Of a DNA stretch of 64,000 bases, positions 56,700 to 64,000 are shown in pieces. The first letter of the stretch is position 1. Every line of letters starts with the position of its first letter. Source of the DNA: Georgenia ruanii (GTDB lineage Bacteria > Actinomycetota > Actinomycetes > Actinomycetales > Actinomycetaceae); contig NZ_VUKE01000003.1 in assembly GCF_009193175.1 (NCBI RefSeq), positions 124,001 through 188,000 on the forward strand, given 5' to 3'. The position numbers and the translations under genes are program-made. A model generated the notes under the pieces. That model ran no database searches. It worked only from the letters and a program-made list of their open reading frames with translations, and was not told the DNA's origin.

Positions 56700-57695
56700 C
56701 TAGGCGGGCGCCGCCGCCTCCTCCCGGACCGAGCGACGCAGGGCCGCGTGCAGACCGGCGAGGGTCAGGGTGCCCGCGGGTGCGCCGTCGTCGCCGTCGA
56801 CCGCGACGACGCCGTCCGGGCTGGTGGCCAGCGCCGCGAACGCCTCCTCCAGGCTGTCGCCCACCCGCAAGGCGCGGGCCGGGGCGGGTGCGCTGCCCGG
56901 GGTGAGGTCCGCGGGGGAGAGAGTCGTCAGCGAGAGGAGGCGAACGGCGCTCGAGGCACCGATGAACTTCTCGACGAAGGGGGACGCCGGGCGGGTGAGC
57001 ACCCGGATCGGGCTGTCCACCTGCTCGAGGCGGCCGCCCTGGCTGAAGACCGCCACGCGATCGCCCAGGAGAACCGCCTCGTCGATGTCGTGCGTGACGA
57101 ACAGGACGGTGGTGCCCAGCTCGTCGTGGATGCGGCTGAACTCCTCCTGCAGCGCCCGCCGTCCCTCGGGGTCGACGGCGCCGAACGGCTCGTCCATGAG
57201 CATGACCCGCGGGTTGGCGGCCAGCGCCCGGGCCACCCCGACCCGCTGGCGCTGCCCGCCGGAGAGCTCGTGCGGGTAGCGCGGCCCGTGGACCGTGGGG
57301 TCGAGGCCGACCAGGCGGAGCAGCTCGGCCACCCGGTCCTGGGTGCGGCGGCGGTCCCAGCCCAGCAGCCCGGGGACGGTGGCGACGTTCTGGGCGACGG
57401 TACGGTGCGGGAAGAGGCCGATGTCCTGGATGACGTAGCCGATGCCGCGGCGCAGCAGCACCGGGTCCTGGGTGGCGACGTCGCGGCCGTCGACGAGCAC
57501 CCGGCCGGCGGTGGGCTCCACGAGCCGGTTGACCATGCGCAGGAGGGTGGACTTGCCCGAGCCCGACGGGCCCACGAGCGTGAGAAGCTCGTGCTCGCGG
57601 ACGTCGAGATCGAGATCGCCGACCGCGACCGTCCCGTCGGGATAGGTCTTGGCGGTGCCCTCGAAGCGGATGAGGGGCTCGGCGCTGGACGGCAT
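56700..57695 (-). CDS. osmoprotectant (glycine betaine/choline) ABC transporter ATPase, OpuCA-like
   Basis: A 331-residue ATPase: Walker A GPSGSGKST, Q-loop VIQDIGLFPHRTV, signature LSGGQRQRVG, Walker B VMLMDEPFGAVD, switch His in VTHDIDEAV. The last ~60 residues resemble one CBS-like unit (LRVGDSLEEAFAAL), shorter than the paired CBS domains of OpuCA. It is divergent from the two permease genes with only 53 bases between starts, so the promoters must overlap. It drives uptake of compatible solutes. Confidence 0.9.
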   Translation of the reverse strand: MPSSAEPLIRFEGTAKTYPDGTVAVGDLDLDVREHELLTLVGPSGSGKSTLLRMVNRLVEPTAGRVLVDGRDVATQDPVLLRRGIGYVIQDIGLFPHRTVAQNVATVPGLLGWDRRRTQDRVAELLRLVGLDPTVHGPRYPHELSGGQRQRVGVARALAANPRVMLMDEPFGAVDPEGRRALQEEFSRIHDELGTTVLFVTHDIDEAVLLGDRVAVFSQGGRLEQVDSPIRVLTRPASPFVEKFIGASSAVRLLSLTTLSPADLTPGSAPAPARALRVGDSLEEAFAALATSPDGVVAVDGDDGAPAGTLTLAGLHAALRRSVREEAAAPA

Positions 57696-57748: not shown

Positions 57749-58426
57749 GTGAGAACGATGTCGACCGCCGCCGTGGCGAACCCGTGGTTCTCCTGGAGCT
57801 ACCTCCAGAACAACTGGGCGGACATCACCAAGTACACCAGTCAGCACGTGAGCCTCACGGTCGAGGCGATGGTGTTCGCCCTGGTCATCGCCCTGCCGCT
57901 GGCGCTGCTCGCCCGGCGCGTCCCGGCGTTGGGCACGGCCGCCGTCGGCGGGTCCGCGGTGCTCTACACGGTTCCCTCGCTGGCGCTGTTCGGCCTGCTG
58001 GTGCCGTTCACCGGGATCGGTCGCACGACGGTGCTCATCGGGCTGACGGCCTATGCCCTGCTCGTGCTGGTGCGCAACGCGATCGTCGGCCTGCAGGGCG
58101 TGCCGGCGGAGGTCAGCGACGCCGCGCGTGGCATGGGCTACTCCTCGACGCGCCGCCTGCTCACGGTGGAGCTGCCGCTGGCCCTGCCCGCCATCATCAC
58201 GGGCGTGCGGCTGGCGACGGTGTCGACGGTGGCGCTCGTGACCGTCGGCGTGGTGGTCGGCTACGGCGGGCTGGGGCAGCTCATGTACCGCGGGTTCAAC
58301 TCCGGCTACCGGGCGGAGATCATGACGGCGGCCGTGCTGTGCCTGCTCATCGCCCTGGCGGCGGACCTGCTGCTGCTCGCCGTGGGTCGGGCCATGACGC
58401 CCTGGGTGCGACGGAGGCAGGCATGA
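57749..58426 (+). CDS. osmoprotectant ABC transporter permease, OpuCB-like
   Basis: A 225-residue permease with about six membrane segments. NWADITKYTSQHVSLTVEAM leads into the first, and VSDAARGMGYSSTRRLLTVELPLALP is the EAA loop. A GTG at 57749 or ATG at 57758 could start it; neither has a clear ribosome site, so a leaderless transcript is possible. It overlaps the second permease gene (ATGA). Confidence 0.9.
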   Translation: MRTMSTAAVANPWFSWSYLQNNWADITKYTSQHVSLTVEAMVFALVIALPLALLARRVPALGTAAVGGSAVLYTVPSLALFGLLVPFTGIGRTTVLIGLTAYALLVLVRNAIVGLQGVPAEVSDAARGMGYSSTRRLLTVELPLALPAIITGVRLATVSTVALVTVGVVVGYGGLGQLMYRGFNSGYRAEIMTAAVLCLLIALAADLLLLAVGRAMTPWVRRRQA

Positions 58427-59136
58427 ACGGCGTCATCGGGGACGCGCTGCGCTACCTCAACGACCCGCTGAGCTGGATGGGCCCCACGGGCATCCTGGCG
58501 CTGCTGCGCGACCACCTGTGGATGACCCTCGTCGCCGTGGTGCTCGCCGCCGTCGTCGCGCTGCCGCTGGGGCTGTGGCTGGGACACACCGGGCGCCGCG
58601 GGACGCTGGTGGTCGCCGTCGCGAACCTGACCCGGGCAATCCCGACGCTGGCGCTGCTGTTCGTCTTCACCGCCGGGCTCGGGCTCGGGCAGCTCCCGAC
58701 CATCCTCGCGGTGGCCATCTTCGCGGTGCCGCCCATCTTGTCGAACTCCTACACCGGCATCCAGGACGTCTCGCCGGCCGCGCGTGAGGCCGGGGCCGGG
58801 ATGGGCATGTCCCCCACGCGGCTGCTGACCGCCGTCGAGCTCCCGCTCGCCATGCCGCTCATCGCCGCCGGCCTGCGCACCGCCGTGGTGCAGGTCGTCG
58901 CGACGGTGACGCTCGCCTCGCTCGTCGGCGGCGGGGGCCTCGGACTCATCATCTCCAACGGCATCGCCACCCAGCGGTACGGCCAGGCGCTGGCCGGCGC
59001 GCTCCTCGTGGTCGTGGTCTGCCTGGGGCTGGAGGGACTGCTGGCGGTGGCGCAGCGGGTGCTGACCCCGGCGCCGCTGCGGGCCGCGTCCGGCGAGGGG
59101 CTCCGCCGGACGCGGCGCGACGCCGTGGACGCCTGA
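58423..59136 (+). CDS. osmoprotectant ABC transporter permease, OpuCD-like
   Basis: A 237-residue permease similar in plan to its neighbour. HLWMTLVAVVLAAVVALPLG is the first membrane segment, SPAAREAGAGMGMSPTRLLTAVELPLAMP the EAA loop, and GGGGLGLIISNG a family-typical later stretch. The two permeases presumably pair as a heterodimer. Downstream, an HNH endonuclease gene on the other strand separates it from the binding-protein gene. Confidence 0.9.
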   Translation: MNGVIGDALRYLNDPLSWMGPTGILALLRDHLWMTLVAVVLAAVVALPLGLWLGHTGRRGTLVVAVANLTRAIPTLALLFVFTAGLGLGQLPTILAVAIFAVPPILSNSYTGIQDVSPAAREAGAGMGMSPTRLLTAVELPLAMPLIAAGLRTAVVQVVATVTLASLVGGGGLGLIISNGIATQRYGQALAGALLVVVVCLGLEGLLAVAQRVLTPAPLRAASGEGLRRTRRDAVDA

Positions 59137-59147
59137 GGTCGGCGTCC

Positions 59148-61097
59148 TTAGAAGGGCGGCGGGTCGTCTGGCGGGTCGAGCGGGGTGACGGTGCCGTCCG
59201 GGGCCAGGTCGTACCGGTGGCCCGTCGGGGTGGTCCACACGAAGGTGCCGGGGGTGGGCTGGTCGAGCTTGAAGGCGCCGGAGGACTTGAGCGGGTGCTC
59301 GCGGCCGCAGAGCAGCTCGGTGTTCCAGTCGGCGGTGGCGCCGCCCTGGGACCACGGCACCGTGTGGTCGATCTGGCAGCTGCCGGGCGGGACCTGGCAG
59401 GTGGTGAAGACGCAGCCGCGGTCGCGTGCGGCGAGGTGGCGGACGAGGTCCGCGGGCGGGCGGTACGTGGTGCGCCCGACGTCGAGCACGGCGCCGGAGA
59501 GCGGGTCGGTGACGATGCGGCGCCAGGTGCCACCGGCCGCCAGGGCGCGGGCGACCGACGGGGTGATCGGGCCGTAGCCGTCGAGCTCGGCGACCTCGGC
59601 GGTGGGCAGGTCGCACGCGGGCACCAGGTCGGTGGGCCGCCCGTGGGGTGGCAGCTCGCCCGGCGGAGTGTTGTCGGGCGGCAGCTCGCCCGGCGCAGTG
59701 CCGTGGGCTGGCAGCTCGCCCGGCGCAGCGTTGTCGGGCGGATTGCCTGGTGGGGCATCGCTGGGCGGAGCACTTCCTGGTGGAGCACCAGCGGGCGGGT
59801 CGCCTCCTGGTGGGCCACTGCCCGGCGGCGGCGAACCGGGCAGGGCCGTCGTCGCGACGGCAGAGCCCTCGCTCACCGAGGCACGGGCACCGACGCGCTC
59901 GAGGCTCCCGCCGCAGTCGTCGTCCTCCGGTGGCAGGGCCACCGACAGGGGCACGGTGAGCCGTACCCGGACGTGGGCGGGCGACAACCGCATCGCCGGG
60001 CCAGGCCAGCCGGGGAAGGGGTCCGCGCCGCGGGCGGGCGCCGCGGGGCCGTCGGCCGACACGGTCGCCGCTCCGGAGGCACCCGCGGGGGACGAGGCAG
60101 GGCCGCCCGCCTCGTTCGGTGGGGTCCCCGCCCACCCGGTGACCAGGGCGTGCTGGGCGAGCGTGACCAGGGTGTCGAAGCGCAGCTGGTCGGTGCTGCG
60201 CGAATCCCCGGCACCCTTCGCGGCCCGCGCGCCGGCCTCGGCGGCCAGGTCCAGCGCGATGAGCTCCTGCGCCGGGCCGACCAGGCGCATGGCGGCCTGC
60301 CCGTCGGGCAGCGGGGTCAGCCGCTGCACGTGCCGCCGCGCGGAAGCTCGATGCTGACGCTGGTCGGCGTCGTGGTGGTCGACGGCGATGAGGGCCTTGT
60401 TGAGGTCCCGGACCACCTGAGGGTGGGAGCGCAAGGGGGCGCGGGGAAGCACCTCTTCCTGCACGGCCCATGCAACGGGAGCCGGCTGGTGGTCGAGCGT
60501 GGTGATGATCGTCGCGGCCTTGCGCCAGTCGAGCAGGCCCGCCTCGAGCGCCTCCGCCGTCGGGGCCATGACGCCGTCGAAGGCGCCGCCGACGGAGATG
60601 AGGCGGCGGCTCTCGGCGCGGGTGAGGCCCATCCGCATCGACAGCTCCTCGGCGGCGACGTTGACGTCCCTCCGGCTGGGGTCTGGGTCGTGCAGGAACG
60701 GGAACATGACGTCCCGGGAGGCCAGCTGGGCGGCCGCCTCGGCGGTACGGGCGGCGGACCACGCCTCCATCCGGTGGTAGCCGGCGATCACCTCGACGGC
60801 GACGTAGTCGTCCACCGTCGTGGGGTCGATGCTCTCCAGCACGGCCGCCAGGCGCGGGCCCGGAGGCATCTCGCGCAGGGCGGCGACCGCCTTCCGGTCC
60901 GCCCCGGGCGGCCCGTCGACATGGAACAGCGGCGCGATGTCACGCGCCAGCGGCTTGAGGTGCGACTGGTCGAGGACCTCGCTGCTGCGAGAGAGGTCGG
61001 GGTGCTTCTCGCAGACCCCGAGGGAGCAGTGCAGGCAGACCTCGTTGTCTGCCGCGCCGTCCTCGTCGGGCTGGCGATCCTCCGTTGGCTCGTCCAT
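59148..61097 (-). CDS. HNH endonuclease of the DUF222 family
   Basis: A 649-residue protein. The first ~40 residues hold CLHCSLGVCEKH, a possible metal site. DUF222 follows (ELSMRMGLTRAESRRLISVGG, LEAGLLDWRKAATI, ARRHVQRLTPLPDG). Then comes a ~65-residue Pro/Gly-rich low-complexity stretch. The C-terminal HNH nuclease is CVFTTCQVPPGSCQIDHTVPW and WNTELLCGREHPLKS. These genes are numerous in actinobacteria and behave like mobile or repeated elements. It lies antisense inside the osmoprotectant locus and is longer than most relatives (~450-500 residues). Confidence 0.9.
   Translation of the reverse strand: MDEPTEDRQPDEDGAADNEVCLHCSLGVCEKHPDLSRSSEVLDQSHLKPLARDIAPLFHVDGPPGADRKAVAALREMPPGPRLAAVLESIDPTTVDDYVAVEVIAGYHRMEAWSAARTAEAAAQLASRDVMFPFLHDPDPSRRDVNVAAEELSMRMGLTRAESRRLISVGGAFDGVMAPTAEALEAGLLDWRKAATIITTLDHQPAPVAWAVQEEVLPRAPLRSHPQVVRDLNKALIAVDHHDADQRQHRASARRHVQRLTPLPDGQAAMRLVGPAQELIALDLAAEAGARAAKGAGDSRSTDQLRFDTLVTLAQHALVTGWAGTPPNEAGGPASSPAGASGAATVSADGPAAPARGADPFPGWPGPAMRLSPAHVRVRLTVPLSVALPPEDDDCGGSLERVGARASVSEGSAVATTALPGSPPPGSGPPGGDPPAGAPPGSAPPSDAPPGNPPDNAAPGELPAHGTAPGELPPDNTPPGELPPHGRPTDLVPACDLPTAEVAELDGYGPITPSVARALAAGGTWRRIVTDPLSGAVLDVGRTTYRPPADLVRHLAARDRGCVFTTCQVPPGSCQIDHTVPWSQGGATADWNTELLCGREHPLKSSGAFKLDQPTPGTFVWTTPTGHRYDLAPDGTVTPLDPPDDPPPF
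59641..59730. repeat. 30-bp repeat, three units, coding Pro/Gly-rich blocks
   Basis: Three 30-base units (from 59641, 59671 and 59701) share the 15-base core GCAGCTCGCCCGGCG and vary outside it. They lie in the HNH gene and encode on the minus strand ten-residue blocks of the type APGELPxxxT. Shorter related blocks continue to about 59830. Confidence 0.65.
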
Positions 61098-61345
61098 GCG
61101 TCCAACATACGTTCGACCACCGACATCCGCTGGAGGCCTGTGGACAGCGCTCCGGCCGGTCCGGATCGGTGGGTGCGGGGCCGGCGTGCCCCTCGGACGG
61201 TCCTTCTGCCCGGTGCGGAGCGGGCGTGGTGGAGTCGGCCGAATTGGCTCTTTCGCCCCAATCGGGTTGCGGATGGGGTCCTCGTCACGGTCGAATGACC
61301 CCCGTCGTCGTCGCCGGGTGCGGCGTGCCCACAACGGAGGTCCCC

Positions 61346-62359
61346 ATGCGCAGGACACGCATCATCGCCGCCCTGGCCGCCCTCGCGGCCCTCACGCTCG
61401 CCGGGTGCGGCGCGCCGGGTTCGTCCGGTGGTGGTGGCAGCGCCGCGCCGTCGGGCTCGGCGTCCGGCTCCTCCACGCTCGCCGCCTGCAAGCCGGTGGC
61501 CGGTGACCAGCTCGTGGTGCTCGAGGACGACAAGCACCTGCAGACGGTGGACAACATCATCCCGGCCGTCAACGCCAAGGAAGCCCAGCCGGCGATGATC
61601 GCGGCCCTCGACGCCGTCTCCGCCACGCTCGACACCCCCGCGCTCATCGCCCTGAACAAGCAGGTCGACGTCGAGCGCACCACGTCGAGCCAGGCCGCGC
61701 AGCAGTACTACAAGGACGCCGGCATCACGGTCAGCGAGAAGGGGTCGGGCAAGGTCGTCGTCGGCGCCGGCAACTTCTCCGAGTCCGCCACCCTCGCCGA
61801 GCTGTACGCCCTGGCCCTGCGCGATGCGGGCTACGACGCCGAGGTCCGCACGATCGGCAACCGCGAGACGTACGAGCCCGCGCTGGAGTCCGGCGAGCTC
61901 ACCGTGGTGCCCGAGTACGCCGGCACCCTGACAGAGTTCCTCAACAAGAAGATCAACGGCCCCGACGCCACCACCAACAACCCCCAGGCCAGTGCGGACC
62001 TGGACAGCACGGTCAAGAACCTCCAGACGCTCGGCGAGAAGGTCGGGCTGACCTTCGGCGCGGCGTCGAAGGCGGCGGACGAGAACGCCTTCGCGGTCAC
62101 CACGGCCTTCGCCAAGGAGCACGACGTCAAGACGCTGTCCGACCTTGCCGGTGCGTGCGGCGGACTCGTCCTGGGCGGGCCGGCCGAGTGCCCGGACCGG
62201 CCGTTCTGCGAGCCCGGCCTCAAGCAGACCTACGGCTTGGACGTCACCCAGTTCGTCTCGCTCGATGCCGGCGGGCCCCTGACGAAGCAGGCGCTGAAGT
62301 CGGGTCAGATCACCTTCGGGCTGGTCTTCTCCTCCGACGCGGCGCTCGCCCAGGGCTGA
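61346..62359 (+). CDS. osmoprotectant-binding lipoprotein, OpuCC-like, with circularly permuted order
   Basis: A 337-residue lipoprotein (lipobox TLAGC, Cys21; Ser/Gly linker to ~residue 45). Its segments are rotated. In ordinary OpuBC/OpuCC proteins KVVVGxxNFxE is N-terminal and LVVLEDDK...NxxPxV...LxxVSAxL...LNxxVDV is C-terminal. Here the latter comes first (residues ~55-128), then GSGKVVVGAGNFSES starts at ~134, and the chain ends at GLVFSSDAALAQG, exactly where LVVLEDDK would normally follow. GGAGG precedes the ATG. It should bind glycine betaine, choline or similar for the permeases at 57.7-59.1 kb. Confidence 0.9.
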   Translation: MRRTRIIAALAALAALTLAGCGAPGSSGGGGSAAPSGSASGSSTLAACKPVAGDQLVVLEDDKHLQTVDNIIPAVNAKEAQPAMIAALDAVSATLDTPALIALNKQVDVERTTSSQAAQQYYKDAGITVSEKGSGKVVVGAGNFSESATLAELYALALRDAGYDAEVRTIGNRETYEPALESGELTVVPEYAGTLTEFLNKKINGPDATTNNPQASADLDSTVKNLQTLGEKVGLTFGAASKAADENAFAVTTAFAKEHDVKTLSDLAGACGGLVLGGPAECPDRPFCEPGLKQTYGLDVTQFVSLDAGGPLTKQALKSGQITFGLVFSSDAALAQG

Positions 62360-62454: not shown

Positions 62455-63270
62455 TCAGATGCTGTGCCGCATCTGACGGATGCCCACCCAGAGCCCGACG
62501 ACGGCGGTGAGCACCGCGGCCAGCGCGCCGTGCCACACGGCCGGGTCGCCGAACGCGCCGTTGAACAGCGCCCGTTCCGCCTCGACCATGTACTTCAGCG
62601 GGTTGAAGGCGGAGAGGACCTGCATCCACCGCGGCCCGTTCTCCAGCGGCAGCAGCATCCCCGAGAGCAGCATCAGCGGGAACAGCAGGCCCTGCTGCAC
62701 GGTCCAGAACATCCAGTCCCGCTCCCGGGAGGCGATGCCCAGCGCGTAGCTCAGCGCCCCGAGGCCGAGCCCGAACACCGCGAGCACGACGAGCCCGGCG
62801 ACCATCCCGGGCAGCGAGGGACGGAACCCCCAGAGCGCCGCGATCGCCGTGATGACCACCGCCTGCAGCACCAGCGGGACCATCTCCTTGCACGCCCGGC
62901 CCACCAGCAGCGCCGAGCGGGCGACCGGGGCGACGAGCATCCGCTCGTGCGCGCCGCTCTGGATCTCGTAGAGCAGGTTCGACCCCGTCATGGCGGTGCC
63001 GAACAGTGCGATCATCACGATGATCCCGGGGATGAACCACTGGAACGCCTGCCCGATGGGCGCGCCGGTCATGCCGCCGAGCAGCGGGGCGTAGAGCGCG
63101 ACGAACATCAGCGGCTGCATGAGCGAGAAGACGATGTTGAGCGGGTCGCGCAGCAGCGGGTGGATCTCGCGGACGAACACGCTGCGCGAGTCGCGCAGCA
63201 CGCCCGACGGACGGGGGCCGGCCTGGTCCGGGCCGGACGGGCGGGGGTCGGAATGAGTCGCGGTGGTCAT
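62455..63270 (-). CDS. ABC-2 type transporter permease (drug-exporter type)
   Basis: A 271-residue membrane protein. A hydrophilic start of ~25 residues is followed by REIHPLLRDPLNIVFSLMQPLMFVALYAPLLGG, then five more hydrophobic segments and PLMLLSGMLLPLENGPRWMQVLSAFNPLKYMVEAERALF, the ABC-2 C-terminal block. It resembles DrrB-like daunorubicin exporters. The ATG overlaps the stop of the ATPase gene. With that ATPase it would export a lipid-like or toxic compound. Confidence 0.9.
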   Translation of the reverse strand: MTTATHSDPRPSGPDQAGPRPSGVLRDSRSVFVREIHPLLRDPLNIVFSLMQPLMFVALYAPLLGGMTGAPIGQAFQWFIPGIIVMIALFGTAMTGSNLLYEIQSGAHERMLVAPVARSALLVGRACKEMVPLVLQAVVITAIAALWGFRPSLPGMVAGLVVLAVFGLGLGALSYALGIASRERDWMFWTVQQGLLFPLMLLSGMLLPLENGPRWMQVLSAFNPLKYMVEAERALFNGAFGDPAVWHGALAAVLTAVVGLWVGIRQMRHSI

Positions 63271-64000
63271 CGGATCGCTCCTGCGGTCTCGGGGGTGGGG
63301 ACGTCGCTGTCCTGGCCCTCCTCGCGCAGGCTGCGCCCGGTCAGGCCGAGGAAGACGTCGTCGAGGGTCGGGCGGGCGAGCTCGGCGGCGAGGACCCGGT
63401 GCCCGGCCGCGTGCAGCGCGGTGATCAGCCCGGGGAGCACCCGGTCCCCGGAGTCCAGGCGGACGACGACGCGGGTGCCCTCCGTGGTCGGGTTCGCCTC
63501 GATCTCGGGCTCGCCCACGCCGGCGCGGGCGGCGGCGCGGCGGACGACGGCGTCGGCCCCGTCCCACGGCCCGGCGAGCGTCAGGGTGATCCGGTCGCCG
63601 GCGAGGTCCGCCTTGAGCCGCGGGGCGGTGTCGTCGGCGATGATCCGGCCCTGGTCGACCACCATGACCCGCTCGGCGAACTGGTCGGCCTCGTCGAGGT
63701 AGTGGGTGGTCAGCAGCAGGGTCATGCCGTAGCGGCGGCGCAGGTCGAGGATGTGCTCCCACAGGTGGGCGCGCGACTGGGGGTCCAGGCCGGTGGACGG
63801 CTCGTCGAGGAAGAGCAGCCGCGGGGCGGGGACGAGCCCGAGCGCGATGTCGACCCGGCGCTTCTGGCCGCCGGAGAGTTGCATGGTCTTGCGGTCCGCG
63901 ACCTCGCCGAGGTCGAGGGCCTCGATCAGCTCGTCCACCCGCCGCCGGGTCTTGGCCCGGCCGAGCCCGTACAGGGCGCCCTGGCTCGTCAGCTCGTCGC
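63267..64000 (-). CDS. ABC transporter ATP-binding protein (DrrA-like), 5' end outside window
   Basis: 244 codons are visible before the frame leaves the right edge. The signature LSGGQKRRVDIALGL, Walker B LLFLDEPSTGLDP and switch His in TTHYLDEADQ are present; Walker A lies beyond position 64000. The C-terminal ~100 residues form the DrrA-type extension that stabilises the complex (PTLDDVFLGLTGRSLRE). Stop-start overlap pairs it with the permease downstream. Confidence 0.92.
   Translation of the reverse strand, partial: DELTSQGALYGLGRAKTRRRVDELIEALDLGEVADRKTMQLSGGQKRRVDIALGLVPAPRLLFLDEPSTGLDPQSRAHLWEHILDLRRRYGMTLLLTTHYLDEADQFAERVMVVDQGRIIADDTAPRLKADLAGDRITLTLAGPWDGADAVVRRAAARAGVGEPEIEANPTTEGTRVVVRLDSGDRVLPGLITALHAAGHRVLAAELARPTLDDVFLGLTGRSLREEGQDSDVPTPETAGAIR

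Follow-up and report, generated by a model that had tools for sequence, protein, structure and literature searches.

A conserved circular permutation in the binding lipoprotein of an actinobacterial ABC importer, likely shifting its membrane anchor from lobe 1 to lobe 2

The gene at 61346-62359 of the window, the 64,000-nucleotide stretch of Georgenia ruanii DNA analysed here, encodes a real, old, and conserved circular permutation of a lipid-anchored importer protein. The explanation we favour, and hold with considerable confidence as a whole, is that the binding protein of an ABC importer was permuted once in the ancestor of an actinobacterial clade. Fold and clam-shell closing would be unchanged, and the permuted protein would dock on the same two permeases, while its membrane tether would leave from lobe 2 rather than from lobe 1. 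A disulfide between Cys48 and Cys271 would stand in for the lost covalent link by fastening the free terminus at the lobe 2 base. Apart from the relocation of the tether to lobe 2, the protein most likely functions as its normal-order relatives do. The gene, its neighbours, and its parts are as follows.

56700-57695, minus strand: importer ATPase, divergent (PF00005)
57749-58426, plus strand: permease 1, with a possible ATG at 57758 (PF00528)
58423-59136, plus strand: permease 2 (PF00528)
59148-61100, minus strand: DUF222 gene, lying between permease 2 and the binding protein (PF02720, 50.7 bits)
61346-62359, plus strand: permuted OpuAC-family (PF04069) lipoprotein of 337 aa, from PF04069 matches and near full-length collinear relatives
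61346-61408, plus strand: signal peptide and lipobox LAGC with predicted lipidated Cys21, from the sequence pattern
61409-61486, plus strand: linker rich in Gly, Ser, and Ala, of low predicted confidence (block means 48 and 55, residues 21-40)
61487-61489, plus strand: Cys48, adjoining the new N-terminus and proposed to form a disulfide with Cys271
61505-61729, plus strand: moved segment, residues 54-128 (PF04069, 1sw1, and structure model; lobes via EgtUC)
61730-61750, plus strand: short junction between the former C- and N-termini, 6-10 residues long across 119 proteins
61751-62056, plus strand: N-terminal part of lobe 1, residues 136-237 (PF04069/1sw1 alignment, EgtUC mapping)
62057-62083, plus strand: hinge 1, residues about 238-246, mapped through EgtUC
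62084-62356, plus strand: lobe 2, residues 247-337, with the new C-terminus SSDAALAQG (PF04069/1sw1 alignment, EgtUC mapping)
62156-62158, plus strand: Cys271, directly ahead of a lobe 2 strand, from counts in permuted and normal-order proteins
62189-62209, plus strand: Cys282 and Cys288 (ECPDRPFC), the older pair common to normal-order sisters, from presence counts

A preliminary description of this stretch had given the open reading frame, its coordinates, and several motifs, all of which are as described, and had placed the usual C-terminal segment ahead of the N-terminal one. That order is upheld by two sets of swapped matches. The window protein scores 131.8 bits in total against the OpuAC profile PF04069 (curated cut-off 21.2), and its domain order is not collinear with the profile: positions 2-184 correspond to residues 136-335, and positions 187-256 to residues 55-123, earlier in the protein. 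Scoring each piece separately returned identical profile limits. A single cut at 184/187 divides the profile into two halves that have changed places with hardly anything lost. Archaeoglobus ProX (1sw1), the best-scoring solved relative by sequence, is likewise matched in two swapped pieces (residues 133-331 to chain positions 4-193, and 56-127 to 201-273). Against the OsmF equivalog NF049931, the protein reaches 70.1 bits, below the 400-bit cut-off. Since family profiles assume one segment order, permuted proteins are easily mis-annotated.

The preliminary description had also proposed a survey of segment order among homologues, which found the permuted form to be widespread in public genomes. 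The order is common to at least 119 distinct proteins from several actinobacterial orders. Of the 59 genomes searched, 14 (own genome counted) yield near full-length collinear matches, including 9/9 of the genus. In a collection of named genomes, the best 80 of 569 relatives are all full-length and permuted, the main groups being Micromonosporaceae (26), Cellulomonadaceae (21), Promicromonosporaceae (15), Demequinaceae (4), and Georgenia (3); two loci titled as other phyla (L066 and L094) may be mis-binned. One match spans the junction in 15/296 genomes sampled from the class and 57/396 from the order (own genome counted), and, under a stricter cut-off, in 2/396 from the phylum. A score gap separates the two forms in the class and order samples, with permuted proteins at 331-610 bits and the rest at 281 or less. 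Identity in the permuted protein is 95% with G. thermotolerans, the nearest named relative, and a dN/dS of 0.14 between the two indicates that the protein is under purifying selection. Ratios against four more distant relatives (L038, L039, L041, and L061; 0.31 to 0.63) were left unused because dS barely grows with distance and looks saturated.

It had been recognised from the outset that a sequencing or assembly error might have joined the parts anew. Such an error is practically inconceivable and is excluded, as chance is, by the homologues, since 119 distinct proteins from many genomes have the identical order; that order also occurs in two single-contig genomes (G149 and G495).

Phylogenetic analysis, together with profile order and homologues, bore out the circular permutation. 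In a quick tree of re-ordered segments, 43 permuted proteins group together against 58 normal-order ones (SH-aLRT 97), and in a more careful tree 18 permuted representatives form one clade (support 98/99). The diverged protein L020 (G010:C1:2526735-2527727) sits on a long branch at an uncertain place inside the permuted group. Under midpoint rooting, permuted proteins are nested in a larger clade with normal-order proteins carrying Cys282 and Cys288, which makes a derived origin of the permuted order the simplest reading.

Circular permutations usually arise when a gene is duplicated in tandem and the outer parts are then lost, and it is this origin that we assume here. The preliminary description had likewise proposed duplication and trimming, for which the loci gave no support: no remnant of the old C-terminal segment was found past the stop codon in the 77 loci with enough sequence (of 80, the best of 569 relatives), searching 1.5 kb downstream for open reading frames of 25 aa or more. 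Elsewhere in the same genome (C22:171823-173732), two normal-order OpuAC/ProX-type binding proteins (L002 and L004) lie adjacent on one strand. Tandem copies such as these are the usual raw material of permutation by duplication.

The genomic setting is that of an importer. The window protein has the lipobox and the nearby ATPase and permease genes of an ABC importer binding lipoprotein, and a lipobox-like motif is present in 119/119 permuted proteins. The order of divergent ATPase, two permeases, and binding protein is found in 76 of 80 permuted loci (the best 80 of 569). The four without it are L047, L049, where the contig begins, and L055 and L094. The latter two encode permuted binding proteins in metagenome bins, and the fetched flank holds no importer gene. 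Normal-order relatives have an identical layout in 18 of the 20 loci checked, the exceptions being L232, at a contig edge, and L248, which is otherwise arranged. No second match was found in 15/15 permuted genomes of the class sample (E 1e-20) or in 56/57 of the order sample (E 1e-40; exception G010), counts obtained by scoring just the top few candidates of each genome. With a laxer cut-off in 59 genomes, the extra matches in permuted genomes, G010 aside, were short ones to the signal region (G001, G005, and G006). As the operon is mostly kept and a second match is lacking, the permuted protein seems to have taken over the locus of the normal one.

The gene at 59148-61100, whose HNH match (PF01844, 20.6) falls just below the cut-off of 21.4, is not part of the transporter. 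Among the best 80 of 569 loci, two from Georgenia (L037 and L039) have a DUF222-like gene in the same place; the remaining 78 showed none. Downstream of the binding protein, an ABC-2 type exporter pair occupies 62455-63998 on the minus strand; the C-terminal part of its ATPase resembles DrrA, with a match that falls just short of the cut-off.

One could imagine that the protein left its neighbouring permeases and now serves as a sensor or as another kind of binding lipoprotein. In the window, the DUF222 gene stands between it and the permeases, and in three of the 80 loci no transporter gene was detected nearby, L049 being the one where the contig begins. Against this, the binding protein still stands behind two permeases in 76 of the 80 (both counts from the best 80 of 569), and we consider such a departure very unlikely.

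Lobes and hinges were mapped through EgtUC, a protein fused to its permease, with its numbering taken as chain position plus 229 and checked on F293, N339, Y341, Y419, and Y443. In the excerpted text of the EgtUC report, domain D1 comprises residues 233-331 plus 445-506 and D2 residues 341-432, joined by two hinge strands of about 10 residues each (PMC9732360). By this mapping, lobe 1 of the window protein consists of residues 71-128 plus 136-237 and lobe 2 of residues 247-334 plus the strand at about 56-58, and the moved segment holds the last strand of lobe 2 (about 56-60), hinge 2 (about 59-70), and the C-terminal part of lobe 1. The cut falls in a lobe 2 loop between the last helix and the last strand. 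With the break confined to lobe 2, neither inter-lobe hinge is lost, and the former ends, as mapped by alignment, appear to meet in lobe 1 through a short linker. A cut at the hinge, with the loss of one inter-lobe link, was also considered and is ruled out by the EgtUC lobe limits mapped onto the protein.

The same mapping bears on the anchor. In normal-order proteins, the anchored N-terminus leads into the first strand of lobe 1, whereas in permuted proteins it leads into a strand of lobe 2. The suggestion in the preliminary description that the lipid anchor would sit on another face agrees with this placement, and the permutation likely shifts the membrane anchor from lobe 1 to lobe 2. The median distance from the lipobox to the first profile segment is 28 residues in the 119 permuted proteins; among the normal-order proteins, 69 of 70 have a lipobox-like motif, and their median is 20.

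Structure prediction with AlphaFold2 gave a pLDDT of 89.7 and a pTM of 0.82 for the window protein, confident over residues 51 to 330 (block means 89-99). A Demequina relative obtained 89.4 and 0.81, with an equal order of elements except for one short helix. The best matches in a sequential Foldseek search were EgtUC, ProX, and OpuAC structures. The first ten cover part of the fold (147-238 columns, target TM 0.38-0.56); this is expected of a permutation, where a sequential alignment can take up just one of the two swapped pieces, without proving it.

The ligand pocket is less conventional than the family name suggests. The preliminary description had assigned an OpuC-type osmoprotectant ligand, which the mapped residues do not favour. 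The EgtUC cage residues F293, Y341, Y419, and Y443 correspond to Y191, N247, F328, and D69, so the window protein lacks the four-aromatic cage of the cluster F-III quaternary-amine binders (OpuBC/OpuCC/ProX/EgtU). With two of the four aromatics replaced, a classical trimethylammonium ligand is doubtful, and 'osmoprotectant-binding' is a family label only. Y191 is kept in 119/119 permuted proteins, and both Y191 and Arg285 are identical in every permuted and normal-order protein counted. Position 328 is F in 95 permuted proteins, L in 20, T in 3, and Y in 1; it varies among normal-order sisters, as does position 307. N247 (118/119) and D69 (117/119) are nearly constant in the sisters too, so the two cage aromatics were probably lost before the permutation.

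Two cysteines distinguish the permuted form. Cys48 is present in 119/119 permuted proteins, five to seven residues from the moved segment, and has a counterpart in 0/70 normal-order proteins; Cys271 is equally constant (119/119), with a counterpart in 2/70 (L033 and L219). Cys282 and Cys288 occur together in 118/119 permuted and 36/70 normal-order proteins, and both are missing from the remaining one and 34. The exceptional permuted protein is L020, the most diverged, which has lost Cys282 and Cys288 and kept Cys48 and Cys271. The both-or-neither pattern, along with this loss of one pair alone, suggests disulfides 48-271 and 282-288. Cys48 and Cys271 look like a permutation-specific disulfide pinning the new N-terminus. 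Because the pair and the permutation both mark one clade, their co-occurrence counts as one event rather than many. In the AlphaFold2 model of the window protein, residues 47 and 272 form isolated bridge residues; they were discounted as support for a disulfide, since the model of the Demequina relative has none there.

A second permuted form was detected in the same phylum. The protein L131 (G129) begins with lobe 2 from the strand LILGG, continues with the old C-terminal segment and then lobe 1, and ends in SIADLANPAS. A junction match to this form was obtained in 4/394 genomes of the class (L131 in G129, L251 in G186, L252 in G1070, and L253 in G343), and all four loci adjoin ATPase and permease genes; among 60 relatives of G129, the form was found in G129 alone. 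The four proteins constitute one clade (100/99) far from that of the window protein, with the cut near PF04069 position 114. A common origin of both permutations was tried by forced joining and rejected (AU p 9.6e-79).

Bacillus subtilis OpuAC (2b4l) adds a third case. A normal-order OpuAC-type protein from the window's own genome aligns to 2b4l with residues 146-283 on chain positions 5-139 and residues 50-143 on 171-265. Split at residue 145, this normal-order protein gives two halves that match profile positions 2-108 and 118-257. These alignments place the OpuAC cut near positions 108-118, about where that of the second clade is; the window protein, cut at 184/187, does not share it. The ends of the window's clade, the L131 clade, and B. 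subtilis OpuAC all lie inside lobe 2.

The three cases invite a bolder reading, which we advance tentatively and at somewhat below an even chance: natural permutation would have recurred in the window's clade, the L131 clade, and OpuAC, each time taking the lipidated N-terminus away from lobe 1 and placing it at the lobe 2 base, with the Cys48-Cys271 lock in the window's clade and with the tether site itself under selection. The permutation may instead have been neutral, a change in a tolerated surface loop of lobe 2 that drift fixed once, leaving the anchor shift and the cysteines irrelevant to transport. A cut distant from the mapped pocket residues fits such neutrality, as do the residues that permuted proteins share with normal-order sisters (D69, E146, Y191, T194, N247, and R285), the mostly unaltered operon, and the one origin of the window's form. 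The conservation of the cysteine pair throughout the permuted proteins speaks against it, as do pocket positions 307 and 328, which differ between permuted proteins and many sisters. That the ends of a second lineage and of B. subtilis OpuAC are also in lobe 2 hints at a favoured solution, yet lobe 2 loops may simply be tolerant places for ends. We regard neutral fixation as a live possibility that falls a little short of probable.

If the bolder reading is true, the exit point of the membrane tether would be a selected property of lipid-anchored importers. One phylum contains two independent permutations with different cuts among close normal-order relatives, and a natural permutation is a valuable test case when the permuted and the normal form both persist in orthologous operons. 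Such permuted and normal pairs offer a direct test of anchor position against docking and transport in a Gram-positive binding protein, and the conserved cysteine pair predicts how a permuted protein repairs its loose new end.

Natural permutation of a binding protein, even within the glycine-betaine-binding family, is already known from two sources. In the excerpted text of the CPSARST paper, circular-permutation relations are given among the glycine-betaine-binding proteins 2b4l, 1r9l, and 1sw1 (PMC2395249). The glucose-binding lipoprotein MglB-2 (Tp0684) of Treponema is permuted as well, and the available passages on it discuss tethering as a possible reason (PMC4990184). Among the matches listed from the open-licence literature, no report was found of the 184/187 cut, the actinobacterial clade, the cysteine pair, or the second permutation.

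The closest parallel by family is B. subtilis OpuAC, which belongs to the same Pfam family, is circularly permuted, and has its new ends in lobe 2; it differs from the window protein in its place of cut and its subfamily. Tp0684 is also a tethered binding lipoprotein with a natural circular permutation and homologues of equal topology. As portrayed in those passages, it has an unrelated type I sugar-binding fold with an added fourth cross-over and a crystal structure (PMC4990184). EgtUC and Archaeoglobus ProX (cluster F-III) are among the closest solved relatives by sequence and fold and have the two lobes and two hinge strands mapped onto the window protein, but their segment order is normal and, according to the EgtUC excerpt, their aromatic cage is full (PMC9732360). 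The normal-order relatives with Cys282 and Cys288 (36/70, e.g., L127-L130 and L021-L024) are in the normal order and have no counterpart of Cys48, and they share with the permuted proteins that older cysteine pair, several pocket residues, and, in 18 of 20 loci, the operon.
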